In this document: positions 411-37,857 of the stretch, in pieces
How the letters are laid out: each line of letters begins with the position of its first letter
Position numbering within the stretch: the first letter of the stretch is position 1
Assembly (NCBI GenBank): GCA_020845895.1
Contig: JADLEX010000031.1
Span: forward strand, 1-39,799
DNA from: Deltaproteobacteria bacterium
GTDB taxonomy: Bacteria > Lernaellota > Lernaellaia > JACKCT01
Length of the DNA: 39,799 nt
Direction: 5' to 3'
The notes under the pieces: model-generated
The model's input: the letters and a program-made list of their open reading frames with translations, nothing else
Databases searched by the model: none
What the model was told of the DNA's origin: nothing
Program-made: the position numbers and the translations under genes

Positions 411-1246
411 GCGGATTGCTTTCGACCGCCGAGCATCATGGCGACGAGATAGGCGACACCCGCGATCATGATGATCGTCGCACCGGACGGCAGATCGGCG
501 TCGTAGCTCACCGCGAGGCCGAGGACGGTAAAGGCGATCGTGAGCGCGACCGACACGACCATGACGTGCGAGACGCGATGCACCAGACGTTCCGCGATGG
601 CGATGGGCAGCGTAAGCATGGCGATCACCATGACGATACCGACCACCGTGACGAGCAGCACGACGGTGAGCGCGGTGAGAACGAGCAACATCAGGTAATA
701 AAACTCGACGTTGAGACCACGCAGCCGCGCGAATTCCTCGTCGAAGCACACGGCCAGCAACTGATGGTAAAATGCGCCGGCGACCATCACCACGACTCCG
801 TCGAGCACCGCGATCATCCACAGGTCACGCTCGGTCACCAGCAGAATGTTGCCGAACAGATAGCTCATCAAATCCTGATTGTACCCGGGGGTGCGCGCGA
901 GAAAGAGCACGCCGATCGCCATGCCGATCGCCCAGATCGCGCCGATCACCGTGTCTTCGCGCTCGCGGGCGCGCAAATTGAGCACGCCGATCAGCAGCGC
1001 CGACCCGACCGCGACAACCCCCGCCCCGTAAAGCGGATGCATCCACGTCCAGGAGAGCGCCTTTTGCGCGAAGACCGCCGCGCCGAGACCGCCGAGTACG
1101 CTGTGCGAGATCGCGCCCGCAATCGACGTCACGCGGCGGGTCACGACGTACGTTCCCACCACGCCGGACGCGACCGCCGCGAGTACGCCGGTGATCAGTG
1201 CGAACTGCAAGAACGCGTATTTCGGCAAATCGGCGAAGAACTGCAC
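407..1246 (-). CDS. ABC-3 family metal transporter permease (ZnuB/MntB type)
   Basis: This 279-residue polytopic inner-membrane protein is the permease of a zinc or manganese importer. It has about eight hydrophobic helices, beginning right after a short amphipathic N-terminus (FLQFALITGVLAAVASG). It shows the family's conserved SIAGAISHSVLGGLG segment, where the His-Ser pair sits in the metal path region, and a second conserved stretch around VVGIVMVIAMLTLPIAIA. Length is normal for the family. It starts 10 bases after the ATPase stop and ends inside the photolyase start codon, so it is the fourth gene of an operon with regulator, binding protein and ATPase. The metal (Zn versus Mn) cannot be decided from the sequence. 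Confidence 0.93.
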   Translation of the reverse strand: MQFFADLPKYAFLQFALITGVLAAVASGVVGTYVVTRRVTSIAGAISHSVLGGLGAAVFAQKALSWTWMHPLYGAGVVAVGSALLIGVLNLRAREREDTVIGAIWAIGMAIGVLFLARTPGYNQDLMSYLFGNILLVTERDLWMIAVLDGVVVMVAGAFYHQLLAVCFDEEFARLRGLNVEFYYLMLLVLTALTVVLLVTVVGIVMVIAMLTLPIAIAERLVHRVSHVMVVSVALTIAFTVLGLAVSYDADLPSGATIIMIAGVAYLVAMMLGGRKQSA

Positions 1247-24936: not shown

Positions 24937-25113
24937 GTGGAATCCCAAAATTGCCTGATTACCATGGCTTTGGTCGTCGTGGTCACCATCGTGGTGGTCA
25001 CGCTTCTGATCCTTCTCCGGGACATCGTGCGCTTCTTTCTGAAGAAGACGCAGGTTCGCGCCTCGTCGCAACGCCCTCTTCCTCGCCCTGACGTCAAGGA
25101 CGGTGTCCGATGA
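24937..25113 (+). CDS. Very small single-helix membrane protein at the head of the polysaccharide locus
   Basis: A 58-residue product beginning at GTG 24937. One strong membrane helix (MALVVVVTIVVVTLLILLRD) is followed by a basic, cytoplasm-facing tail (FFLKKTQVRASSQRP) and a polar end. AAGGG lies six bases before the GTG. A later ATG at 24964 would start right at the helix. Its stop overlaps the ATG of the degenerate GGDEF gene (ATGA at 25110-25113), which is good evidence that it is translated. Its position recalls small partner proteins of GT2 synthases such as PgaD, although PgaD is larger with two helices. Its role is unknown. Confidence 0.6.
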   Translation: MESQNCLITMALVVVVTIVVVTLLILLRDIVRFFLKKTQVRASSQRPLPRPDVKDGVR

Positions 25114-25964
25114 AAGCGAACAACGACAACGCGAAATCGTCCGAGATCCTCGACCTCGTGGTTCTCGGCGCGCTCGGCGCGGCGTTTGGCTTCCTGTTCA
25201 TCTACTACTTCAAGATCCGCCAATACGAGGCGCTCACGGTTGTCGTCACGATGCCGGTGGCGTTTCTCGCGATCACGCGGGGTCTGAAGTTCGGCGCGAT
25301 GGGTTCGATCTTCGGCGCCGCCATTTACGGCAGCCTCGTTCTGTTCAAGATTGTCCAGGGAACGGCCCAAGCCGGATTCATCCGCGAGAGCATCGTCAAC
25401 ATCGGGATCATCGTGGTGATCGGGTTCGTATTGGGCACGATCTCGGAGACGATGAATTTTCGCCGGGCCGGAGTCTTCCGCGAGGTCACGACCGTCGAGA
25501 CGTTCGTGCCGGATGAAGAAACGGGGCTTTACAATTTCAAGAGCTTCCGCTGGATGCTCTCGGGAGAAATGAAGCGCGTCAAGCGCTACAACACGCCCCT
25601 GTCGCTGGTCTTCGTCCGCATCAACAACCTCGGCGAGTTCCAGAAACGCTACGACTACGAGCAGGAAGTCGCGCTCTTCCGCGATATCGGCCGTTTTCTT
25701 CGCAGCATGCTGCGCGACGCCGACTACGTCGGAAAATACGCCGACTCGGAACTCGGAGTCATCCTACCCGAGACGAATGCGAACGGCGTGAATATCGTCG
25801 TCACGCGTTTTCTGGAGCGACGCCAGACGCTGCTCGCGCAGGTCGGCAAGACGTGGGACGAGGTCGTTCCCGAGCTGTCGCTCAGCTCGGCGAATTTCCC
25901 CAAGGATGCGACAAATCTCGAAGAGCTGATCGACGTGATCGACAGCCGATATCAACCCCTCTAA
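25110..25964 (+). CDS. Membrane protein with degenerate GGDEF domain and intact I-site; probable c-di-GMP receptor
   Basis: A 284-residue inner-membrane protein. About four helices fill residues 13-115 (DLVVLGALGAAFGFLFIYYF, VVVTMPVAFLAI, SIVNIGIIVVIGFVLGTI). A GGDEF-type domain follows from about 135 (DEETGLYNFKSFRWML). The catalytic GGDEF is replaced by ADSEL (211-215), so it should not make c-di-GMP. The inhibitory I-site RxxD (R202-D205) is kept at the exact family spacing. This is the arrangement of c-di-GMP receptors such as PelD and Listeria PssE. There is no GAF domain as in PelD. It is coupled to the tiny upstream membrane protein and followed 27 bases later by the DUF2334 gene, so it probably switches polymer synthesis on. 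Confidence 0.82.
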   Translation: MKANNDNAKSSEILDLVVLGALGAAFGFLFIYYFKIRQYEALTVVVTMPVAFLAITRGLKFGAMGSIFGAAIYGSLVLFKIVQGTAQAGFIRESIVNIGIIVVIGFVLGTISETMNFRRAGVFREVTTVETFVPDEETGLYNFKSFRWMLSGEMKRVKRYNTPLSLVFVRINNLGEFQKRYDYEQEVALFRDIGRFLRSMLRDADYVGKYADSELGVILPETNANGVNIVVTRFLERRQTLLAQVGKTWDEVVPELSLSSANFPKDATNLEELIDVIDSRYQPL

Positions 25965-25991
25965 GGAGACGCGGCCCATCATCGCGCGCCC

Positions 25992-28118
25992 ATGCGAACG
26001 ACCCTGATCGCCATATTCGCGCTCGGTTTGATCATCGGCGTACTGTTCGTCACGATGAATCAATTCGAGGAAAAAGCGCCGGACTTCGGACCGAGAGGCG
26101 ATCTCGTGCTCGTCATTCACGACGTCGTGTCGCCGGGTGCCCCCGCCGCCGATCAACTCGTCAGCGCGCACTCCATCGTGCAGTTGTTGGGGCACTTCCC
26201 CGTCAGCACGCGCCTCGTTTCGACGGGCGATTACGAAAAGGGCATGCTCTCCGAGGCGGCCTACGGAATCTATGTCGGCACCAAGACCGATCAACCGTTG
26301 CCGACCTACCTCCTCGACGACATCTTCCAGTCGACGCGTCCGTTTCTGTGGATCGGAGCGAACCTCGAGCGCCTGCAAGCGCGCCACAATCTCGACAACT
26401 TCGGGATTCGAGCTGTCGAGGGCGGCGACGCATTCGCGACCAACGTCGTTTATTACAAGAATCAGCCGCTCGCGAAGATCGACCTTCGGACCTTCAAGGT
26501 CGACGTCACGCGCTCGCAGGCGGCGCAGGTGCTCGCCGAGGCGAAGTACGTGTCCGATCCGCCCAAGCCCGCGCAGGCCGGACTCGATATCGAACCCGGC
26601 ACACCGGCGCGGCTGCCGTCCATGGTCGCGGACGAGGTTCTGCCCGTCGGTTTGCCGCCGCTGCCCTCCGTCGACGTTCCGCCGATGCCGGCTCCTCGAA
26701 CCGCCGGCGAAACGGCAATGGACATCGAATCGAAGACGATCGCCGGAGTCTCGCCTCCTGCGGTATCCGCGGTGACGGGCGACGGCCTGCCCGTGCCGCC
26801 TTCCGCGACGCCTCCCGCTGTCTCGCTGCCGTGGATCGTGCGCGCGCAGAACTTCTGGTTTGTGGCGAGCGACCCCATTGCGTACCATATCGAGGGCGGC
26901 GCGTATCTCGCCTTCGCGGACGTTCTCTACGACTTCTTCGGCGAGAAATCCGGCGAAGAGCACTTCGCCTTCGTGCGCATCGAGGATGTCCACCCGAAAC
27001 GCGAACTGGACACGTTGCGCAAGGCCGCGGACCTGCTCGCCGAGCGGGATGTGCCGTTCGCCTTCACGCTCGTGCCGGTTTACAAGAACGGTGAGAACGG
27101 CGAGCCGATCTATCTCTCCGAAGCGCCGGAGTTTCTCAAAACGGTCCGCTACCTCATCAGCAAGGGCGGCGTGCCGATCCTGCATGGATTCACGCACCAG
27201 CACACGGCGGAATCCGCGGTCGATTTCGAATTCTGGGAAGGCGAAACGGGCGGACATCCGATCGCGCAGGACAAGACCTTCGCGTCCCAGCGGATCGAGC
27301 AGGCGCTCAACGAGTGCTTCGTCAATGAAATCTATCCGCTCGCGTGGACCACGCCTCATTACGCGGCCGGCCATGCCGACTACGACGCCTTCGCGGACTA
27401 TTTCACGACGGTCGTTGAACGGCGAATGCCCGTCGAAGCGTACGGCTCGGATCAGTTCTTCCCTTATCTGATCCAGTCCGACATGCACAAACAGATCATC
27501 ATCCCGGAGTCGCTCGGCTACGTGAATCCCGGCGTGGGCCGCGATGCCGCCGCGCTCCTGCGCGACGCGGACGCGATGAAGGTCGTACGCGACGGCTGGG
27601 CGAGCTTTTTCTTCCACACCTTCCTCGATCTCAACCTGCTCACGCAGATCGTCGACGGACTCAAGGAGCGCGACTTCCGTTTCGTGTCGCTCACCGAATT
27701 CAACAACAAGGTCACAACGCGCGACCGCGTGGTCGTCTCCGGAGTGAGCGAGGTGCAACTCACGCTCGACTCCCAGTACCGCAACGAGCGGACCTATAAC
27801 GATCGAGGCGAGTTGCTCGACGAGAACTTCTCCTTCGGCACCGTCAAGGGCAACGTCACCAGTCTCGTCACACTGCGACCCGACGAATTCCAGGTGATTC
27901 AGGGCGTCTATCGGCGGCCGCCGGTCACCGTGACGACGCTCAACCTCTTCCGGCCGACCATCTCGGGCATCTCCAATCCCGTCGCGATCGTGCTGCTCTT
28001 CATCGGCATGATCACGCTGGTGCTGTTTCTCGGGATCTGGATCTTTCTGGTCACCCGGCGAACGGTCGCCGGCGCGAAAAGAATGGCGGCAGTCCGCCGT
28101 CACACGGAAGAATTCTGA
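25992..28118 (+). CDS. Membrane-anchored DUF2334 polysaccharide deacetylase-like protein
   Basis: A 708-residue envelope protein. An N-terminal helix (LIAIFALGLIIGVLFVTM) anchors it, and a soluble domain to about residue 190 and a Pro-rich linker (about 195-285) follow. The DUF2334 catalytic part has RIEDVHP with D332, HGFTHQH with H398 and H402, TTPHY, and FFFHTFLD. These metal-site motifs match the polysaccharide deacetylase superfamily. A second helix lies near the C-terminus (PVAIVLLFIGMITLVLFLGI). By analogy with PgaB it may N-deacetylate the growing polymer in the periplasm. ATG 25992 has AAGGAG about 20 bases upstream. Its stop overlaps the GT2 start (TGATG). Confidence 0.82.
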   Translation: MRTTLIAIFALGLIIGVLFVTMNQFEEKAPDFGPRGDLVLVIHDVVSPGAPAADQLVSAHSIVQLLGHFPVSTRLVSTGDYEKGMLSEAAYGIYVGTKTDQPLPTYLLDDIFQSTRPFLWIGANLERLQARHNLDNFGIRAVEGGDAFATNVVYYKNQPLAKIDLRTFKVDVTRSQAAQVLAEAKYVSDPPKPAQAGLDIEPGTPARLPSMVADEVLPVGLPPLPSVDVPPMPAPRTAGETAMDIESKTIAGVSPPAVSAVTGDGLPVPPSATPPAVSLPWIVRAQNFWFVASDPIAYHIEGGAYLAFADVLYDFFGEKSGEEHFAFVRIEDVHPKRELDTLRKAADLLAERDVPFAFTLVPVYKNGENGEPIYLSEAPEFLKTVRYLISKGGVPILHGFTHQHTAESAVDFEFWEGETGGHPIAQDKTFASQRIEQALNECFVNEIYPLAWTTPHYAAGHADYDAFADYFTTVVERRMPVEAYGSDQFFPYLIQSDMHKQIIIPESLGYVNPGVGRDAAALLRDADAMKVVRDGWASFFFHTFLDLNLLTQIVDGLKERDFRFVSLTEFNNKVTTRDRVVVSGVSEVQLTLDSQYRNERTYNDRGELLDENFSFGTVKGNVTSLVTLRPDEFQVIQGVYRRPPVTVTTLNLFRPTISGISNPVAIVLLFIGMITLVLFLGIWIFLVTRRTVAGAKRMAAVRRHTEEF

Positions 28119-29398
28119 TGCCGTACGCGAACGTCTATATCGATCTTTGCTTCCTGTCCGCGGCGATCGGCATCTGGCTCTTCCTGCTGTTCAACGTGCT
28201 GCTCACATTCTTCGCGTTCCTCAACGGCCTGTCGTCCGAGAAAGAGCGCGCGCGCCTGTTTTCGGAGTCCTTCCCCTTCCCGTTCGTCTCCATTCTGATT
28301 CCCGCGCACAATGAAGAGCTCGTCATCGAGCGCACGGTGCAGGCGATGCTCGCGCTCAATTATCCCAAGGAGCGTTTGGAGATCATCGTCGTCAACGACG
28401 GGAGCAAGGACCGAACCGGCGACGTGGTCGCCGAAATCGCCGCGCGGCACCGCGAGGTCAAACTTGTCACCGTGCCCGAGGGCGAAGGCGGCAAGGGCAA
28501 GAGCCGCACGCTCAACGTGGGCCTCGAACACGCGATGGGCGACGTCATCGCCGTGTACGACGCGGACAATCGCCCCGAGCCCGACGCGCTTCGTTACCTC
28601 GTCGCCAACCTCGTCGAGGACCCGAAACTCGGCGCGGTCCTCGGCAAGGTGCGCACGATCAACCGCGACCGCAACTCCCTGACGCGGTTCATCAACCTCG
28701 AATTCATTTCGTTTCAGTGGCTCATGCAGGGCGGGCGCTACAAGCTGTTCAACCTCGCGACGCTGCCCGGCACGAACTACGTGATCTGGCGCAAGGTGCT
28801 CGACAAGGCCGGTCGCTTCGACGAGGAGGCGATCGCCGAAGACGCCGAGCTGTCGATCCGCCTGTACGAGATGGGCTACCGCATCAAGTTCATTCCCTAC
28901 TCCGTCACGTGGGAACAGGAGCCGGAGGACGTCAAGACCTTCGTCCGCCAGCGAACGCGATGGGTCCAGGGGATGACCTACATCGTCCGCAAGTTCCTCA
29001 AGGTCGCGTTCCAGATGAAGAACCGGCGAATCATGTTCGACCTGTTCTACATGTTCAGTCTCTACTACGTCTTTTTCTTCGCGCTCATTCTGTCGGACGT
29101 GATCGCCGTCCTCGGGCTGCTCGGCTTCATCAAGCTCGGGCTCGTCGGACCCTTCACCTTCATCTGGTTCCTCGCGATGATGCTGTTTTTCATGCAGTCG
29201 CTCATCGCCATGAGCCTGGAGGAGGAAGAGTCATTCCTGAACATCCTGCTCTCGCTCATCATGTACGTCACCTACTGTCAGGTTTGGATTGTCATCGTCT
29301 TCCGCGCGTTCTGGATCGACGTGATCCGACGACGAAAAGGAACGGTCTGGGAAAAAACGATCCGGTACAAGATGCGCGAGAAGCAGGCGGATGGATGA
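28118..29398 (+). CDS. Processive GT2 glycosyltransferase (exopolysaccharide synthase, PgaC/HAS-like)
   Basis: A 426-residue inner-membrane synthase. One helix (about 10-36) precedes the cytosolic GT-A domain; several helices follow from about 300. The processive GT2 motifs are complete: NDGS with D94, DADN at 148-151, PGTNYVIWR, ED at 241-242 and QRTRW at 278-282. It should polymerise a nucleotide-sugar and extrude the chain through its own membrane channel. It lacks a PilZ domain, so c-di-GMP control would have to come through the degenerate GGDEF neighbour. It overlaps the DUF2334 stop by one base and the next gene by eight, indicating tight coupling. The sugar used is unknown; PgaC (GlcNAc) and cellulose/hyaluronan synthases share these motifs. 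Confidence 0.93.
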   Translation: MPYANVYIDLCFLSAAIGIWLFLLFNVLLTFFAFLNGLSSEKERARLFSESFPFPFVSILIPAHNEELVIERTVQAMLALNYPKERLEIIVVNDGSKDRTGDVVAEIAARHREVKLVTVPEGEGGKGKSRTLNVGLEHAMGDVIAVYDADNRPEPDALRYLVANLVEDPKLGAVLGKVRTINRDRNSLTRFINLEFISFQWLMQGGRYKLFNLATLPGTNYVIWRKVLDKAGRFDEEAIAEDAELSIRLYEMGYRIKFIPYSVTWEQEPEDVKTFVRQRTRWVQGMTYIVRKFLKVAFQMKNRRIMFDLFYMFSLYYVFFFALILSDVIAVLGLLGFIKLGLVGPFTFIWFLAMMLFFMQSLIAMSLEEEESFLNILLSLIMYVTYCQVWIVIVFRAFWIDVIRRRKGTVWEKTIRYKMREKQADG

Positions 29399-30590
29399 CG
29401 CGGCTTTCGGCGTCGGGGTGAAGCGGATGCGGATGTGGACCGCTTGCGTGACGGGGGCGGTCTTGATGACGGCGGCAGGGTGCGTGTCCTCCAACGGACA
29501 CGCCGAAGCGCCGATGGATGCGGGAGCGGCGGAACGGGCCTGCAGGGCCTTTTTGGAAACGAGGATGATGACGGCGCAAGGCGGCATTTACACGTTCTCC
29601 CCGATCACGAAGACCTCGTGGTTCGGGCACCCTTCCGTGCGCGTCGAGGACCTGCGCGCGTCGGGGCTGCTGTCGGAGAGCAACGGCATGCTCATGCGCT
29701 ACGCCGTGGACGCGGATGACCGCGCGCTGTTCGATCGTCAGTTCCGTTTCGTCAAAAAGTGGATGACCGGGCATCTTGGTCTGTTTTTCTGGAAGATTTC
29801 GCACGACGCCGAGCTCACGGCGGACTCCACCGCGATCATCGACGACCTTCGAATCGTCGATGCCGCCCTCGCCGCCGGCGAGAAATGGTCGGTCGAGGAG
29901 TACACGCGCTTTGGGTCGGAGATCGCGTACAACATTCTCGAGCTCGAATCGAAGGACGGCTTGCTGCGCGACTTCGTCAGTTGGCGCGACTGGGGCGAGA
30001 ACACCCTCTCGCCGCAAATTCAGCTCTCCTATCTTCATCTCGACGCGATCCGGCGCATCGCCGCCGCGCGCGAGGACTGGAAGGACCTGTACGCGAAGAA
30101 CGCGGCGCTGCTGGCGGACGGTCAGCTCGAGACCGGTCTCTTCTACGAGAAGTTCAACTTCGAAACGCGACGCTACGAGGGCACGCGCCAGAACACGATC
30201 AATCAACTCTACTGCGCGCTTTTTCTCGCGGGACACGATCCGAAAAACCGCCGCGCCCTCGACTTCTTCGCGGCGCGGTGGCGCGAGGACGGCGCGATTT
30301 ACGCCGAGTATGAAGCGCGGAACGAATCGGCGACGAAGGACTACGAGTCGTCGAGCGTGTACGCGCTGCTGGTCAGATACGCGATGCGGATGAACGATCC
30401 CGCGCTCGCGGCCGCATGGCTCAAGAGGCTCCTGGCGTTTCAGGTGTCCGACGAGCACAGCCCCCTGCGCGGATCGTTCAGTGATGACGAGGTTTACAGT
30501 TTCGACAATCTGGAAGCGCTGCTGGCGCTTCGCGAGTATCGTGACGCGAACCGAGACGCGGTCGGACGCGCCGTCCCGAAGGCTCACTGA
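29391..30590 (+). CDS. GH8-like secreted glycoside hydrolase lipoprotein
   Basis: A 399-residue exported lipoprotein with lipobox VLMTAAGC and a helical (α/α)6-type body. LLSESNGMLMRYAV holds the likely general acid E96. ALFDRQFRFVKKWM, GLFFWKI and TAIIDDLRIVDAAL (D151/D152) follow in the order expected for glycoside hydrolase family 8 and its relatives. In cellulose systems the GH8 enzyme BcsZ trims the polymer during export. The start is uncertain: ATG 29391 overlaps the GT2 gene by eight bases, while GTG 29418 gives a more typical short signal peptide. The residues fit, but a GH8-related noncatalytic role cannot be ruled out. It is followed by the porin gene after 37 bases. Confidence 0.7.
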   Translation: MDDAAFGVGVKRMRMWTACVTGAVLMTAAGCVSSNGHAEAPMDAGAAERACRAFLETRMMTAQGGIYTFSPITKTSWFGHPSVRVEDLRASGLLSESNGMLMRYAVDADDRALFDRQFRFVKKWMTGHLGLFFWKISHDAELTADSTAIIDDLRIVDAALAAGEKWSVEEYTRFGSEIAYNILELESKDGLLRDFVSWRDWGENTLSPQIQLSYLHLDAIRRIAAAREDWKDLYAKNAALLADGQLETGLFYEKFNFETRRYEGTRQNTINQLYCALFLAGHDPKNRRALDFFAARWREDGAIYAEYEARNESATKDYESSSVYALLVRYAMRMNDPALAAAWLKRLLAFQVSDEHSPLRGSFSDDEVYSFDNLEALLALREYRDANRDAVGRAVPKAH

Positions 30591-30592
30591 GG

Positions 30593-30610
30593 GACGTCGC
30601 GAACGACGTC
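30593..30610 (+). other. Intercistronic hairpin/direct repeat before the TPR porin gene
   Basis: GACGTCGCG occurs at 30593-30601 and 30605-30613. Since GACGTC is self-complementary, the two copies can also form a 6-bp stem. It lies between the GH8 stop and the porin ribosome-binding site and could tune the level of the giant porin; chance is possible. Confidence 0.35.
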
Positions 30611-30627
30611 GCGGGAAGGACCGAGCG

Positions 30628-33600
30628 ATGAAACGCATCACCGTATTCCTGCTGGCACTGGCGTTGCCCGCGCTTTGGGCGACGTCGGCGTTCGCGGGTC
30701 TGTACGAGGATGGCCTGTCGTATTACGGCTCCGGCCAGTACGGCAAGGCCGTTGCCGCGTTCCAGGCGGCCCTCGAGGCAGATCCGCAAAACCTCGAGGC
30801 GAAGAAGAAGCTGGGCGACAGCTACTACGCGCTCGGGAAAAACGCCGAGGCGGCGAAGGTCTATGAAGAGGTCCTCGCGCAGGATCCCAACGACGGCGTG
30901 GTGCGTCTGCATCTCGCGCAGGTTCGTCAGTGGCAAAACGACGCCGCGCAGGCGATCGAAACGTATACCAATCTGTTGGAGAAAGAGCCCGAGAACCTGA
31001 CGGCGATGCGCGAGCTCGCCGAGGTGTATTCCTGGAACAAGGAGACGTATCCGAAGGGCGTCGAGATCTGTGACCGGATCCTCAAGATCGAACCGAAGGA
31101 TCAGAAGGCGCTGCTCATCAAGGCGCGCCTCACCTCCTGGCAGGGCGAACACGGCAAGGCCGCCGAGGTGTACGAGGGCCTTCTCAAGCTCGATCCCGAC
31201 AACGACACCGCGCGCCTCGAATACGCGAACACGCTTTCTTACGCGAAGCGCTACGACGACGCCATCAACCAATTCAATCTGCTCGTGCTCAAACCGAAGA
31301 TGCGCTCGCAGGCATTGATCGGCCTCGCCGACGCGTACAACTACGGCCAGCGCTACGCCGACGCGGTGCTGACCTATCAGATGGTCCTCGAAAAGGACAA
31401 GAACAACGTGCAGGCGCTGCGTGGATTGGGCAACGCCTATGCGGCGCAGAAGCGCACCCGAGAGGCGGTCGAGACCTACGAAAAACTCGCGACGCTCGAA
31501 CCCGGGAATCAGGAAAACACCCTGGTCCTGGCGAATCTCTACAGCTGGGATGAATCGACCTATCCGCAGGCGATCAAGACCCTCGAGCAGTTGATCGCGA
31601 AAGACCCCAACAACGCCGACGCCAGACGGCTGCTGTCGCGCATCTACACGTTCTCGAACAACCACACCGAGGCGCAGAACCAGTACAAGGCGCTGCTCGA
31701 CGCCGATCCCGACAACGCCGATCTTCGACTCGAATACGCCCGAGCCCTGCGCGAATCGGGGGATTTCGGTCCCGCCATCGAGCAGGTGGATGTCGTGCTC
31801 GGCAAAACGCCGGATGACGTGGACGCCAAGATCGCCAAGGCGCAGATCCTGACGGAATTCGGTCGTCCCGACGAGGCGATCGCGCACTACGAGCAGATCC
31901 TGGCCACCAAGGGACAGGAAAAAAACCTCGACGCGCAGGTCGGCATCGGCCTCGCGTATCACAAGAAAGCGCTCGTCGCGAAAAAGCGCATGGACGAACT
32001 CGAGGCGTCGATCCAGCAGCAATGGCTGGGTGTCTTCGACCGCGTGCGCGCCGTCTTCGCGAAGTGGGATCACGACAGCGCCCGCACCGCCTCGCTCGAC
32101 CATCTCGAACAGGCGGCGAAGGATCACCCCACGTCCTCCCTGCCCTACATCAAACTCGCCGAGGTCCAGATGGACTACGGCGCGAATGAGGACGCGATTG
32201 CCGCCTATCAGAAGGCGGCGCAGGCCGATCCGCAGGATGTCGCGCCGTGGCTGGGCATGTCGGTCGTGTACGGCAAGATGGGCAATCCGGACAAGAGCCT
32301 CGACGCCATCCGTCGCGCGGCGATGATCGCGCCGGACAACATGGAGGTCGTCGGCGGTTTGTCCGACGTCTACACCTATCAGCGCGATACGCAGAACGCG
32401 ATCAAGACCCTCGAACAGGCCCTCTCGACGCACACATCCGATCTCGACCTGCGCCGAAAGCTCGCCATCGTCTATTCGCAGAACAGCCTCTACTACGACC
32501 AGGCGATCGAGCAGGCGAACTACGTGCTCCAGCAGGAGCCGGAGGATTTCCAGACCCGTCTGCTGCTCGCGCGCCTGTATTCGTGGACCGAGAAGTGGAA
32601 CGAGGCCGACCGCGAGTTCCAGGTGCTGCTCTCGAAGATGCCCGAAGATGAGCCCGTGAAGTCCGAGGAAGGCGCGAACGTTCACCTCGCGGAACGCAAC
32701 AAGGAAAAGGCGCTCACCAAGGAAGACCTCTACCTCGAGATGATGCGGGTTCGCTGCTACGGCGGACGCGCGCCCGAGGTCATCGTCGAGCTGACCGACA
32801 AGGTGCAGCAGCAGCCGGACAAGGCGACCTATCGTCTCGCGCTCGCGCACGCGTACGAAATCAACAAGGAATACGAAAAGTCCGAGACCCTCTACACGCA
32901 GGTCAAGGACACCGATCCGCGCAACTCGAACGCCTACATCGGTCTCGGGACCGTCTATCGCGAGACCGCGCAGTACGACAAGGCGGTGCTGGCCTATCGC
33001 GACGCGCTCGCCATCGACAGCGAATCGACCGAAGCCTACTACGGCCTCGGCGTGATCGACCGCAAGAGCGGCAACTACGAACGCGCCATCGCGATGCAGC
33101 GCAAGGTGCTGGAGTACGACCCGACGAACGTCAACGGCTTCACCGAAATGTCGTACAACCACTACCTGCTCTCCCGCCGCTACGTGGCGGTGACCGGCGA
33201 ATACCAGCGCGCATGGTGGCTGCTTCAGAATTCGTGGGGCGATCTCTACGGCATCTACGGCGACTACCCCGCGAACATCGAGCAGATGCGGCGCATCCTC
33301 GAAGACGACCCCGCGAACGTTCAGGTGCGTTACCTGCTCGCGCAGGAACTCGCCGCGCACAATCGCTACAAGGAAGCGGCCCGCGAGTATCAGAAGGTGC
33401 TGGAGTATGACCCGGGGCATGTCGGCGCGCGCCTCGCCCTCGCCGAAATCTTCAGCTACGACCGTGACACTTACGGCTACGCGATCGCGCAGTGCATCGA
33501 GGTCCTGAAAAAGGACCCGGAGAACTTCGACGTGCGGCTGCGCCTCGCGCGGCTGTATTCGTGGTCGGGCCAATTCGAAGCCGCCAGTCAGCAGTATATC

Positions 33601-35997
33601 TGGCTGCTCAATCGGCGGCCCGGCAACCTCGACCTGCGGGCCGAGTACGCGCAGAACCTTTCGTACGCCAAGCGTTACGACGACGCCATCGAGCAATTCT
33701 CCATCGTCCTCTCGCAGGATCCCGGCCGCGAGGACGCGCGCATGGAATTGGCGAAGCTCTTTGCCTACAACAACCGCATTGACGACGCGATGAAGGAATA
33801 CGAGGTCATCCTCAAGCGCAGCCCGAACAACTACGAGGCGGGCTTCGCGCTGGCGAACCTCTACTCGTGGGACCGGCGCTATTATGGCCGCGCGATCGAC
33901 CTGTATCGCCGGCTTTACAACACGTACCCCAAGAACACCGAAGCGCGTCTGGAAATGGGCCGCCTGATGCTGGAACGCGGCGAGTTCGAGGACGCCGAGG
34001 CCGCGTATCGCGACGCCATCGCGCTCGAGCCCGACAACGTGGACGCCCATATCGCGCTGGGCAAGGTCTACATCGGCATGAAGAAGAACGGCGACGCCGA
34101 GAACGAGTTTGCGACCGCGCTCAAGTACGACCCGGACAACGTCGAGGCGCACTTCTATATGGCGAGCGTGCTCTCGATGAATCCCGATCGGTACGAGGAC
34201 GCGATTCCGCACGCCGAATTCGTCGTGAACAAGGAGCCGGAGAACACCGACGTGCGGATTCTTCTCGCGCGGCTTTATTCCTACGAAACGCAGTACGCCA
34301 AGGCCGCGGAGCACCTGCAGTACGTCGTCGATAAGGGCGAAGACGACCGCGAGGTGCTGCTCGAACTTGCGCGAGCCTACAACTACGGCGAGGACTACGA
34401 CTCGGCGCTGAACGTTTACAAGACGATGGTCGAAAAGGACCCGAACGACAACACGGTGCGGCTCGAAATGGGCCTGTGCTTCCTCGCGGTCGGCCAGTAT
34501 CAGGATGCGATCGTCAACCTGGAATATGTCGCCGAGCAGGATCCGTGGAACGTCGAGGGTCGCAAGGGGCTCGCCCGCTCGTACAAGCAGTCGGGCCAGG
34601 TGGATCAGGCCATCGACCAGTACAAGCGCATCATGATCATCAATCCGAAGGACGACGAGGCGGCGCAGTACCTGAAGCTGTACTCGATCGAATACGTGGA
34701 CGGTGCGTTCGTGGACAGCTATTTCATGCTGCCTGGGCCGGGAGGTCCCGGCGGAATCAAACCGGGCAAGGCCTCGCTCTACATGAGCGAGGCGGAGCAG
34801 AAGTATCGCGTCCAACTCGCGAACGAGCTGTACAACCGCCAGAACCTGAAACGGGCGCGCTACGAGTTCGAGAAACTCGTCAAGGCGAATCCGCAAAACG
34901 CCTATTACCATCTGGCGCTGGCGAACATTTATCGGCAGTCGGGCATGTGGCGCTCCGCGATCCACGAATACAAGGTCGCCCAGACGCTGGAGCCCGACAA
35001 TCAGGAAGTGAAGGAAGGACTCGCCCGAGTGGCCTACGAAAGCGCCCCCACGCTGGACGTTTTCGCAGGGTACTCGGAGGCGATCCGTTTCGCCGATCGC
35101 GTCGGCTACTTCGTCGGCGGCGCCGAATTCACCTACCGCTTCCTCGACAACTGGGCCGTCTGGGCGCGGTACGAAGCCGGCCGCTTCGACCAGCAGCGCC
35201 AGGACGTCATCTTCACGCAGTCCCCCGCGGTCGGTCTGCAGCTCGGCCTCGGCGGCGAGGTCGCGATCTCGGGCGAGTACATCTTCAACATCTACGATCA
35301 GAACATCGACCCGACGCACAACTGGGGCGCGCGGGCGAGCTACGACCTGCTCGGCGTCGCCCTCTTCGACCTCGCGTACTCGCGCAAGGACAAGCGCGAG
35401 ACCTTCACGTCGGTCGCGGAGAACATCTATATGGATTCGATCGGACTGACGCTGACGCTGCGCAATTTGATCGGTACGGATTGGGACCACTTCAGCGTGC
35501 TGGGCGAATACGCGTATCGCATCAACAGCGAATCGAAAGGCGACATCGTGGCGCTCGATTCGCAGACGTCCAATCAGGCGCGCGGCGGGCTCGGTTACAC
35601 CTTCTTCGATCCGTTCCAGGTCGCCGACACGTCGATCCTGCTGTCGTACCTGTTCACGTACATCGACAACGAAACGCGCGATCCCTACAACGCCGAGGTC
35701 TACTGGTCACCGCTCGACTTCTACAGCCACTCGCTGCCGATCGGATGGAATCAGGCCGTCACCGAGGACGTGTTCTACAGCCTCGGTGTGTCGCCCACGT
35801 ATTCGTTCGAGGAGGGCGAGGACGGTTGGGGCGTCGGCCTATTCGGCGGCGTCGATTGGCGCATCAACTACAATCACGCCCTATCGCTCGACGCCGACTG
35901 GTCCTATGGCGGTGTGCAGGACGCTTCGTTCTACGCGTGGAGCGTGTTCCTCAACTGGCGAATCTCCTTCGGCGATCACTCCGCGCTGGAGAAGTAG
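30628..35997 (+). CDS. Giant TPR-β-barrel outer-membrane polysaccharide export porin (BcsC/PgaA/PelB type)
   Basis: A 1789-residue protein. A signal peptide (residues 1-23, ending ATSAFA) precedes a periplasmic superhelix of roughly 40 TPR units (about 24-1470). A Gly/Pro loop (GPGGPGGIKPG) near 1370-1380 precedes the last units. A C-terminal domain of about 318 residues has alternating aromatic β-strands and the segment VYWSPLDFYSHSLPIGWNQ, characteristic of 16-stranded export barrels such as BcsC and PgaA. It would conduct the polymer across the outer membrane while the TPRs span the periplasm. Known BcsC, PelB and PgaA proteins are about 800-1200 residues, so this one is much larger. ATG 30628 has GGAAGGA upstream. 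It is the last gene of the locus and converges with the CDF genes. Confidence 0.9.
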   Translation: MKRITVFLLALALPALWATSAFAGLYEDGLSYYGSGQYGKAVAAFQAALEADPQNLEAKKKLGDSYYALGKNAEAAKVYEEVLAQDPNDGVVRLHLAQVRQWQNDAAQAIETYTNLLEKEPENLTAMRELAEVYSWNKETYPKGVEICDRILKIEPKDQKALLIKARLTSWQGEHGKAAEVYEGLLKLDPDNDTARLEYANTLSYAKRYDDAINQFNLLVLKPKMRSQALIGLADAYNYGQRYADAVLTYQMVLEKDKNNVQALRGLGNAYAAQKRTREAVETYEKLATLEPGNQENTLVLANLYSWDESTYPQAIKTLEQLIAKDPNNADARRLLSRIYTFSNNHTEAQNQYKALLDADPDNADLRLEYARALRESGDFGPAIEQVDVVLGKTPDDVDAKIAKAQILTEFGRPDEAIAHYEQILATKGQEKNLDAQVGIGLAYHKKALVAKKRMDELEASIQQQWLGVFDRVRAVFAKWDHDSARTASLDHLEQAAKDHPTSSLPYIKLAEVQMDYGANEDAIAAYQKAAQADPQDVAPWLGMSVVYGKMGNPDKSLDAIRRAAMIAPDNMEVVGGLSDVYTYQRDTQNAIKTLEQALSTHTSDLDLRRKLAIVYSQNSLYYDQAIEQANYVLQQEPEDFQTRLLLARLYSWTEKWNEADREFQVLLSKMPEDEPVKSEEGANVHLAERNKEKALTKEDLYLEMMRVRCYGGRAPEVIVELTDKVQQQPDKATYRLALAHAYEINKEYEKSETLYTQVKDTDPRNSNAYIGLGTVYRETAQYDKAVLAYRDALAIDSESTEAYYGLGVIDRKSGNYERAIAMQRKVLEYDPTNVNGFTEMSYNHYLLSRRYVAVTGEYQRAWWLLQNSWGDLYGIYGDYPANIEQMRRILEDDPANVQVRYLLAQELAAHNRYKEAAREYQKVLEYDPGHVGARLALAEIFSYDRDTYGYAIAQCIEVLKKDPENFDVRLRLARLYSWSGQFEAASQQYIWLLNRRPGNLDLRAEYAQNLSYAKRYDDAIEQFSIVLSQDPGREDARMELAKLFAYNNRIDDAMKEYEVILKRSPNNYEAGFALANLYSWDRRYYGRAIDLYRRLYNTYPKNTEARLEMGRLMLERGEFEDAEAAYRDAIALEPDNVDAHIALGKVYIGMKKNGDAENEFATALKYDPDNVEAHFYMASVLSMNPDRYEDAIPHAEFVVNKEPENTDVRILLARLYSYETQYAKAAEHLQYVVDKGEDDREVLLELARAYNYGEDYDSALNVYKTMVEKDPNDNTVRLEMGLCFLAVGQYQDAIVNLEYVAEQDPWNVEGRKGLARSYKQSGQVDQAIDQYKRIMIINPKDDEAAQYLKLYSIEYVDGAFVDSYFMLPGPGGPGGIKPGKASLYMSEAEQKYRVQLANELYNRQNLKRARYEFEKLVKANPQNAYYHLALANIYRQSGMWRSAIHEYKVAQTLEPDNQEVKEGLARVAYESAPTLDVFAGYSEAIRFADRVGYFVGGAEFTYRFLDNWAVWARYEAGRFDQQRQDVIFTQSPAVGLQLGLGGEVAISGEYIFNIYDQNIDPTHNWGARASYDLLGVALFDLAYSRKDKRETFTSVAENIYMDSIGLTLTLRNLIGTDWDHFSVLGEYAYRINSESKGDIVALDSQTSNQARGGLGYTFFDPFQVADTSILLSYLFTYIDNETRDPYNAEVYWSPLDFYSHSLPIGWNQAVTEDVFYSLGVSPTYSFEEGEDGWGVGLFGGVDWRINYNHALSLDADWSYGGVQDASFYAWSVFLNWRISFGDHSALEK

Positions 35998-36008
35998 CGC
36001 CGATCCCC

Positions 36009-36905
36009 CTATTCCTTGCGCTGCTCCGGGACGTCCGGCTCGACATGCACGAGCAGGTTCACCGGCGCGTCGACGTGCGTCTCGACCATTTTTTCCAGGT
36101 CCGTCGCGACCTGATGCCCGTCGAGCACGCTCATGTCCGCGTCCACGAGAATATGAACATCGACAAATATCTCGCGACCGACATGACGCGTGCGAAGCTC
36201 GTGGTGCGCGCGGACCTGAGGGTGCGACGCGATCAGCCGCGCCACCTGGTCGCGGACCTGCGGCTCGACCGCCCCGTCGGTCAATTCGCTGAGGCAGTCG
36301 AACCCGACCCGCGCGCCGACGATGACGATCATGATGGCCACGACCAGACCGGCGAAGGCGTCGCCGTGATCCCAGCCGAGCGTGCCGCCGATCGTACCCA
36401 CGATGACCACGACGGAGGAAAACGCGTCGGAGCGATGATGCCACGCGTTGGCGAGTACCGCCGGGCTGTTCGTCCGTTTCGCCACGCTCCGCGTGACCCA
36501 ATACAACCATTCCTTGGATACGACGGAAATGCCCGCGAGCACGAGCACCCAGGTTCCCGGCGGGCGCGTCGCCACGTCGGCAATGAGCAGGTGCAGGGCG
36601 CTCCACGCCATCCAGCCACCGACGCCGATCAGAACGAGCGCCACGAAAATGGCCGCGATCGTCTCGAATTTGCCGTGCCCGTATGGGTGCGTATCGTCCA
36701 CCGGGCGCTCGGCGGCCTTGGCGCCTGCGAGAACGGCGATGTCCGTGAGCAGATCGGACATGGAATGCAGGCCGTCGGCCACGAGAGCGATCGATCCGAC
36801 GAGTTCGCCGACGACGATTTTGCCGATCATGAGCGCGATGTTGATGACCGCGCCGACCAGCGTCACGTTTCGGATCGCTCGGGAATCGTCGGCCTGTCCG
36901 CTCAA
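36009..36905 (-). CDS. Cation diffusion facilitator (CDF) metal exporter, HxxxD type
   Basis: A 298-residue inner-membrane antiporter that expels divalent metal ions. Six helices are followed by a cytosolic ferredoxin-like domain (VRAHHELRTRHVGREIFVDV). Transport site A is HSMSD in helix 2 and HHRSD in helix 5, i.e. HxxxD in both places, which fits Zn-type CDF proteins. ERPVDDTHPYGHGKFETI between helices 2 and 3 is the family loop. It lies 19 bases downstream of a paralogous CDF gene and is probably co-transcribed with it. ATG 36905 gives a full-length N-terminus. Only 11 bases separate its stop from the porin gene stop. Confidence 0.93.
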   Translation of the reverse strand: MSGQADDSRAIRNVTLVGAVINIALMIGKIVVGELVGSIALVADGLHSMSDLLTDIAVLAGAKAAERPVDDTHPYGHGKFETIAAIFVALVLIGVGGWMAWSALHLLIADVATRPPGTWVLVLAGISVVSKEWLYWVTRSVAKRTNSPAVLANAWHHRSDAFSSVVVIVGTIGGTLGWDHGDAFAGLVVAIMIVIVGARVGFDCLSELTDGAVEPQVRDQVARLIASHPQVRAHHELRTRHVGREIFVDVHILVDADMSVLDGHQVATDLEKMVETHVDAPVNLLVHVEPDVPEQRKE

Positions 36906-36924
36906 CTCCGCTCCGATCGGCGCT

Positions 36925-37857
36925 TCACAGATGCGCCGTGGGAAGGTATTCGCCGCCGGTCCGCTGACCCGGAATGTCCGGCTCGATGTGCACGAGCAGG
37001 TTGACGGTCTTTGTCACCCGCGCATTGACCAGTTCCTTGAGTTCCTTCGTCACCTGATGACTTTCGTACACATTCATCGTCGGGTCCACCAGAACGTGCA
37101 CATCGACGAAAAATTCCCGGCCGACACGCCTTGAACGCAATTTGTGGTGCGCCCGCACTGACGGATGGGAGTAGATGACCCTCTGCAACTGATCCCGGAT
37201 TTCCGGCTCGGCCGACGCGTCGGTAAGTTCCGTCAGGCCGTCCGCGGCGACGCGCGCACCGGCCGCGAAGATCATCGCGGCGACGAAAATTCCCGCCACC
37301 GCATCGGCGTAATCCCAGCCCGCCAACATCCCCGCGCCGCCGAGAAGCACCACGAGCGCCGAGAGTGCGTCGGATCGGTGATTCCATGCGTTGGCCATCA
37401 ATGTCGCGCTGTGCACGCGGCGCGATACGCCGCGCGTGAGACGGTAGAGCCATTCCTTCGCGACGAGCGTGAAGACCGCGACGGCGATGACCGGAACGCC
37501 GGGAACCGGTCCCGGCCCTAGCCGGAAGACGCGATAGGATCGCCAGGCGAACCCCGTGCCGACGGCCATGATCACGACCGCGATCGCAATGGCGGTCAGC
37601 GTTTCATACTTGCCGTGACCGTACGCGTGATCGTGATCGACGGGCCGGCGGCTGACGCGCGCCGCGACGAGGATAGACGCGTCGATGCCGATGTCGGAGA
37701 TGGAGTTCGCGGCGTCCGCGAGCAGCGCCACGGATCCTGTCCATAATCCCGTTGACAGTTTGACGATGGACAGGACGATGTTCGTCGCGAGCGCCGTCAG
37801 CGTGACATTGCGCAGATCGCGATCGCCGTTGCCCGTGTTGACCCAGTGAAATGCCAT
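36925..37857 (-). CDS. Cation diffusion facilitator paralogue with substituted metal site (NxxxD)
   Basis: A 310-residue CDF protein clearly paralogous to its downstream neighbour. It has the loop RRPVDHDHAYGHGKYETL, six helices and the same cytosolic domain (VRAHHKLRSRRVGREFFVDV). In site A both His are replaced by Asn: NSISD in helix 2 and NHRSD in helix 5. Asn at these positions is known in Mn-type and magnetosome CDFs, so a different metal or heterodimer formation with the HxxxD partner is possible. It starts 55 bases downstream of the dehydrogenase gene. The short His-containing tail TAHL is unremarkable. Metal specificity is inference from two residues. Confidence 0.92.
   Translation of the reverse strand: MAFHWVNTGNGDRDLRNVTLTALATNIVLSIVKLSTGLWTGSVALLADAANSISDIGIDASILVAARVSRRPVDHDHAYGHGKYETLTAIAIAVVIMAVGTGFAWRSYRVFRLGPGPVPGVPVIAVAVFTLVAKEWLYRLTRGVSRRVHSATLMANAWNHRSDALSALVVLLGGAGMLAGWDYADAVAGIFVAAMIFAAGARVAADGLTELTDASAEPEIRDQLQRVIYSHPSVRAHHKLRSRRVGREFFVDVHVLVDPTMNVYESHQVTKELKELVNARVTKTVNLLVHIEPDIPGQRTGGEYLPTAHL

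Follow-up and report, generated by a model that had tools for sequence, protein, structure and literature searches.

The closest described systems to the locus analysed here are Yda of Bacillus subtilis and Pss of Listeria monocytogenes. The Yda genes stand in the order ydaJKLMN (PMC5422440, PMC13274460), with the gene of a putative hydrolase first and that of the BcsB-like YdaN last. In the receptor YdaK, the RxxD motif R202-D205 lies five residues before SDERI, and either of the substitutions R202A and D205A abolishes the polysaccharide (PMC5422440). In Listeria, the hydrolase PssZ, encoded outside pssA-E, degrades a ManNAc/Gal polymer (PMC7479077). This polymer is a beta-1,4-ManNAc chain with alpha-1,6-Gal, and the receptor PssE, which binds c-di-GMP with a Kd of 0.8 uM, is essential for it. 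The pssA-E genes end with the receptor and include the BcsB orthologue PssD.

Another c-di-GMP-controlled system, nfrBA-ybcH of Escherichia coli, combines a GT2 synthase with a TPR/barrel porin and takes UDP-ManNAc from WecB. It is WecB-dependent, c-di-GMP is sensed by an MshEN region fused to the GT2, and the NGR glycan is proposed to be a ManNAc-based polymer. The Bcs, Pga and Pel systems are also under c-di-GMP control and share secretins of the PelB/BcsC/PgaA fold and periplasmic modifying enzymes. Their cores are different from the one described below, as Bcs uses PilZ, Pga uses PgaC-PgaD, and Pel uses PelD with a GAF domain and a GT4 synthase. Neither DUF2334 nor GH126 is known to occur in any of the three.

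Here, we analyse a six-gene block in a stretch of 39,799 nucleotides, referred to as the window. We consider it highly probable, judging from the sequences, that the block encodes a diderm version of the Yda/Pss-type machinery for c-di-GMP-controlled exopolysaccharide synthesis and export. It is classified as a variant of Yda/Pss in which one defining part, BcsB, is absent, since a BcsB-like subunit is missing from the whole class to which the host belongs. The comparison with Listeria and B. subtilis is based on published motifs, on control genomes (PF10096 and PF03170 in B. subtilis) and on other Firmicutes loci.

The six-gene block and its conservation

The window contig (C31) is part of a 4.98-Mb genome that is 99.5% complete. 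In GTDB the phylum is FEN-1099, and Candidatus Lernaellota and Podoxiota are other names for it (PMC11382960). An exact-peptide scan of GTDB genomes finds the MAGs named "Deltaproteobacteria bacterium fen_1099" as named relatives. The genome encodes two Omp85 proteins, and therefore the host has an outer membrane.

The block consists of six plus-strand ORFs between positions 24937 and 35997, see Table 1. Overlaps of 4, 1 and 8 bases and two gaps of 27 and 37 bases separate them, where the 37-base gap assumes that the porin starts at 30628, an ATG that gives the product a signal peptide. The original prediction had described this tightly packed arrangement, and all ORFs are present where it placed them. 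The Rfam scan gave no riboswitch or other RNA reaching the gathering threshold, and the promoter scan gave no sigma-70-like site.

Table 1. Genes of the block, with positions in the window.
Feature	Position	Strand	Evidence
58-aa protein, one predicted TM helix (residues 7-25)	24937..25113	+	four-genus alignment, hydropathy
284-aa putative YdaK/PssE-type receptor, four predicted TM helices and degenerate GGDEF	25110..25964	+	PF00990 2e-14, motif columns, TM scan
708-aa DUF2334 protein, predicted TM 4-22 and 664-682 (both ends anchored)	25992..28118	+	PF10096 4e-45, TM scan
426-aa processive GT2 synthase, four predicted TM helices	28118..29398	+	PF13641 4e-36, alignment, TM scan, tree
399-aa GH126 glycoside hydrolase, probable lipoprotein	29391..30590	+	PDB profile search, family residues
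1,789-aa outer-membrane porin, signal peptide	30628..35997	+	TPR families, AF2 model, Foldseek

A survey for the same gene order, as the original prediction had suggested, finds the block in five of the seven Lernaellota-class genomes examined, covering two families and several genera. Apart from the window, the copies are in G001 (L022), G005 (L024) and G006 (L025), and G002 (L023) has one that contains frame errors. Among them, the GT2 is 76-82% identical, while the GGDEF, DUF2334 and hydrolase proteins are 44-64% identical. In family f1 the block is found 3' of glyQS but in family f3 it is not, so it is not merely part of a frozen neighbourhood. In separate surveys, the GT2 core, the Yda-type DUF2334 and the barrel are found in exactly the same five genomes and are jointly missing from the other two. 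Coverage of other diderms comes from one sample of 386 genomes, in which the barrel was not found in any genome outside the class, and from the exact-peptide scan of GTDB genomes.

The small membrane protein comes first in the block in all four genera aligned and has 11 invariant residues across them; therefore, the 58-aa ORF is a real gene, as had been proposed. Its GTG start at 24937 matches that of the L022 orthologue, and the protein is presumably a subunit of the inner-membrane complex.

Some further observations concern the surroundings of the block. In L023 (G002:C23) the GGDEF, DUF2334, GT2 and GH126 genes are broken by frame breaks and the porin is intact; many other nearby genes are broken too, which makes assembly error likelier than decay. 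In the block-less class member G004 (L140:8880-12413), wecB adjoins alcohol dehydrogenase and aldolase genes, which in the window are located downstream of the block; a block that was lost may have left this arrangement as its scar. After the block, on the minus strand (36009-37857), the window has two similar genes in tandem, whose products of about 300 aa resemble cation-diffusion-facilitator transporters. An open frame of 1,670 aa runs antisense to the porin gene (30478-35490, minus strand); it is not scored as a gene, because such frames are expected in high-GC coding DNA.

A probable Yda/Pss-type core: putative receptor, synthase and hydrolase

In Firmicutes loci, the recurrent order is GH126 - degenerate GGDEF - DUF2334 - GT2 - BcsB, as in ydaJKLMN, while in one genome (L170) the receptor comes last, as in Listeria pssA-E. 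The window retains GGDEF - DUF2334 - GT2 in the ydaKLM order, with PF10096 and the GT2 adjacent. It also shares with ydaJKLMN the N-terminal TM region of the receptor, the spacing of RxxD and the putative hydrolase in the operon. However, the hydrolase gene follows the GT2 instead of coming first, no BcsB-like subunit is encoded, and the small TM protein and the outer-membrane TPR porin are added, in a diderm host. A GT2, an I-site receptor with degenerate GGDEF and a GH126 hydrolase are shared with Listeria, where in contrast to the window a BcsB orthologue is present, the receptor gene is last, PssZ is encoded elsewhere and there is no outer membrane. Listeria Pss had been named among the possible relatives and was the right lead, but the idea of a hybrid of Bcs, Pga and Pel does not hold, as the core is that of the known Yda/Pss system in a known gene order.

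Yda-type clusters also occur in Clostridioides difficile (L060, L061, L080). L061 has the order GGDEF - DUF2334 - GT2 - BcsB with wecB about 3 kb further on, and the gene content of the C. difficile cluster differs from that of the published ccsZABHI cellulose cluster.

The receptor has ADSEL in place of GGDEF, and its relatives have SDNEI at this position. The I-site R202-x-x-D205 is kept, five residues ahead of ADSEL. Among GGDEF proteins adjoining a Yda-type GT2, RxxD is found in 23 of 23 and GG(D/E)EF in none. We infer from these motifs that the protein is a c-di-GMP receptor of the YdaK/PssE kind. The degenerate GGDEF membrane protein of the original prediction is thus confirmed, with the four predicted TM helices and the intact I-site, and its c-di-GMP-linked synthesis and secretion locus is supported at the sequence level, with the receptor, the GT2, a probable deacetylase and the porin. 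Pel was tried as an identity and rejected: the sole GGDEF is in the 284-aa protein, the synthase is a GT2 and not a GT4, and there is no PelD with a GAF domain.

The GT2 has the motifs of a processive synthase (D94, D148-A-D150, E241-D242 and QRTRW 278-282), as had been expected, and a domain search finds no PilZ in it. In the tree, the class GT2s and the Yda-type GT2s from Firmicutes and Elusimicrobia form one compact group, and PgaC, BcsA and an NfrB relative are distant from it. Path lengths are about 1.5-1.7 within the group, compared with end branches of 4.5-10 for these three. This grouping is likely rather than certain, because support is moderate (89/87) at the node where the class meets the other Yda-type GT2s; the branches of the references are long, and YdaM and PssC themselves are outside the tree.

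For the hydrolase, a PDB profile search gives 3REN (3e-55) and 6R2M, which is PssZ (9e-32). The residues that define GH126, in CPF_2247 numbering, are E84, D136, R139, Y194 and Y307 (PMC7479077). All five are found in the window (E96, D151, R154, Y214 and Y324), and across 23 homologues they vary little or not at all. The GH8-like lipoprotein proposed originally is therefore a GH126 enzyme; the lipoprotein part is probable for the window copy, where the signal is visible, while no cysteine is seen at that place in the f3 relatives. The specificity of GH126 is debated, and CPF_2247 has been reported as an amylase (PMC7479077).

Could the block instead be a divergent cellulose locus, in which c-di-GMP control has shifted from PilZ to the GGDEF protein? 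The GT2 does match CelA, the hydrolase fold is related to that of BcsZ, and the barrel described below resembles BcsC. The CelA match, however, reaches 107 bits against a cut-off of 699, and PilZ is absent. BcsB (PF03170) is absent from all seven class genomes, while a control search finds PF03170 in E. coli and B. subtilis. In addition, the hydrolase is GH126 and not GH8, E. coli BcsZ scoring 18 bits against the profile of the window family. A Bcs origin is thus very improbable.

The DUF2334 protein and the outer-membrane porin

The DUF2334 protein contains a candidate NodB-like active site, formed by E331-D332, H398-x3-H402 and H456. The pattern of E/D-D, H-x3-H and a further His is conserved among 50 GT2-linked DUF2334 homologues, of which 48 also have the C-terminal TM helix. 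Such residues would suit a metal-dependent deacetylase, and a probable deacetylase agrees with the possibly deacetylated polymer proposed originally. No report of an enzyme activity of DUF2334 was found in a literature search, and a PDB sequence search gave no match. The AF2 model of the full protein, made with four sequences, is poor (pLDDT 48), and tblastn against a plasmid collection gave three partial matches only.

DUF2334 is also found in other settings. In Elusimicrobia (L050:9983-13975, L051:9740-13858 and L053-L055), the proteins are about 1,320-1,370 aa with a long extra C-terminal part. Their gene directly precedes a Yda-type GT2 and, in three of the five loci, comes right after wecB; no GGDEF or porin was found near them. 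A Halopseudomonas locus (L103:9341-17992) has the order DUF2334 - wecB - NfrB-like GT2 - NfrA_C porin, and in Variovorax (L111) DUF2334 adjoins Nfr-type genes. These two loci tie DUF2334 to a second ManNAc-type system.

The TPR region of the porin covers about residues 22-1460, with room for about 42 repeats, and the C-terminal beta-barrel about residues 1475-1789. With 1,789 aa it is longer than E. coli BcsC (1,157 aa) and PgaA (807 aa). The AF2 model of the C-terminal 410 aa (pLDDT 82.8) predicts a barrel of about 16 strands with a TPR tail, which fits the solved secretin fold of PelB, BcsC and PgaA. The top Foldseek matches of the barrel are PelB (9h80) and BcsC (9b8h/6tzk), with PgaA (4y25) ranked 7. 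Together with the TPR families, the model bears out the TPR/β-barrel porin that had been proposed.

The set of a deacetylase, a GT2 and a TPR-barrel, the latter PgaA-like among others, brings to mind a diverged form of the Pga locus for the synthesis of poly-beta-1,6-GlcNAc, in which the GT2 would be PgaC, the DUF2334 protein a PgaB-like deacetylase and the porin PgaA. PgaC_IcaA (TIGR03937) is indeed the best NCBIfam match of the GT2, but with 173 bits against a cut-off of 422, and the porin scores 168 bits against 367 for the PgaA family (TIGR03939), mostly from the TPRs. E. coli PgaB has no match to the DUF2334 profile, the two-helix PgaD is absent, the GT2 groups with Yda-type enzymes, and GH126 and a degenerate GGDEF are foreign to Pga. 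We therefore regard this alternative as unlikely, if slightly less so than the Bcs one.

The polymer sugar and the proposed machine

Of 80 related loci, 32 have the gene wecB, encoding the epimerase that forms UDP-ManNAc, in the flanks of DUF2334 that were covered (at most 10 kb). In 26 of the 80 it overlaps a cluster gene or is no more than 400 bp away from one, 25 times on the same strand, and several Firmicutes have it in the operon itself, with GT2 and GH126 on either side. Because of this proximity in 26 loci, ManNAc is the best guess for the polymer sugar, and genome context leads us to lean towards it. The sugar, left blank in the original prediction, can thus be given a candidate. Loci with and without a Yda-type GT2 do not differ in wecB (Fisher test, p = 0.5), so wecB tracks DUF2334 loci generally and not the Yda type alone. 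Six class genomes have one copy and G003 has two; the class genomes without the block also carry it, and therefore wecB serves other uses as well. In G005 and G006 the sole copy adjoins the block in divergent orientation, and in the family of the window it is located away from the block.

A further alternative is a ManNAc system of the Nfr kind (NfrB synthase and NfrA porin) that acquired a separate receptor. It would likewise combine c-di-GMP control and WecB with a GT2 and a TPR/barrel porin, and DUF2334 is present in some Nfr-like loci, as in Halopseudomonas and Variovorax above. However, the 426-aa GT2 lacks the C-terminal MshEN region of NfrB and is of a different lineage from the E. coli GT2. 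E. coli NfrB gave no match to the class GT2 profile, by which this reading is mostly refuted, and the receptor, the hydrolase and the gene order of the window are Yda-type, while E. coli Nfr has neither a degenerate GGDEF receptor nor GH126. We give it as little chance as the cellulose reading. A shared polymer alone would not prove common descent of the Nfr and Yda-type machines.

For the Yda/Pss-type machine, we suggest the following model. The GGDEF protein would bind c-di-GMP at the I-site and turn on the PilZ-less GT2. The host has ten GGDEF domains, one of them the window's own and one a weak match; the eight others have intact GG(D/E)EF, which counts in favour of the model. The GT2 would polymerise the sugar, most likely ManNAc from WecB-made UDP-ManNAc, and thread the chain across the inner membrane. 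In the periplasm, the double-anchored DUF2334 protein would work on the chain, probably as a metal-dependent deacetylase, and it may, at a guess, take the place of BcsB. GH126 would trim or clear the polymer, and the TPR porin would lead it through the periplasm and the outer membrane.

It could further be speculated that this is a separate class of diderm exopolysaccharide machine, in which a stand-alone degenerate GGDEF reads c-di-GMP, a double-anchored DUF2334 deacetylase takes the role of BcsB, and a possibly partly deacetylated poly-ManNAc leaves via an unusually long TPR porin. We hold this stronger claim as tentative, and somewhat less than probable. Searches of the open-access literature found neither the six-gene order nor a Yda/Pss system of diderms described, which is weak evidence of absence, and the main text of a systematic operon survey does not mention Pss, yda or DUF2334 (PMC7112194).

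The locus is unusual in that the host of this Yda/Pss machine is a diderm, that an outer-membrane porin belongs to the set and that BcsB is missing. Studies of the machine have so far been confined to Gram-positives, in which the polymer crosses one membrane. In this candidate phylum the core and an outer-membrane secretin are fixed as a unit, which shows how a synthase system can be adapted to a second membrane. The links to wecB and GH126 make ManNAc a testable prediction, here and for the Yda polymer of B. subtilis, and they point to a possible role for the widespread DUF2334 family.
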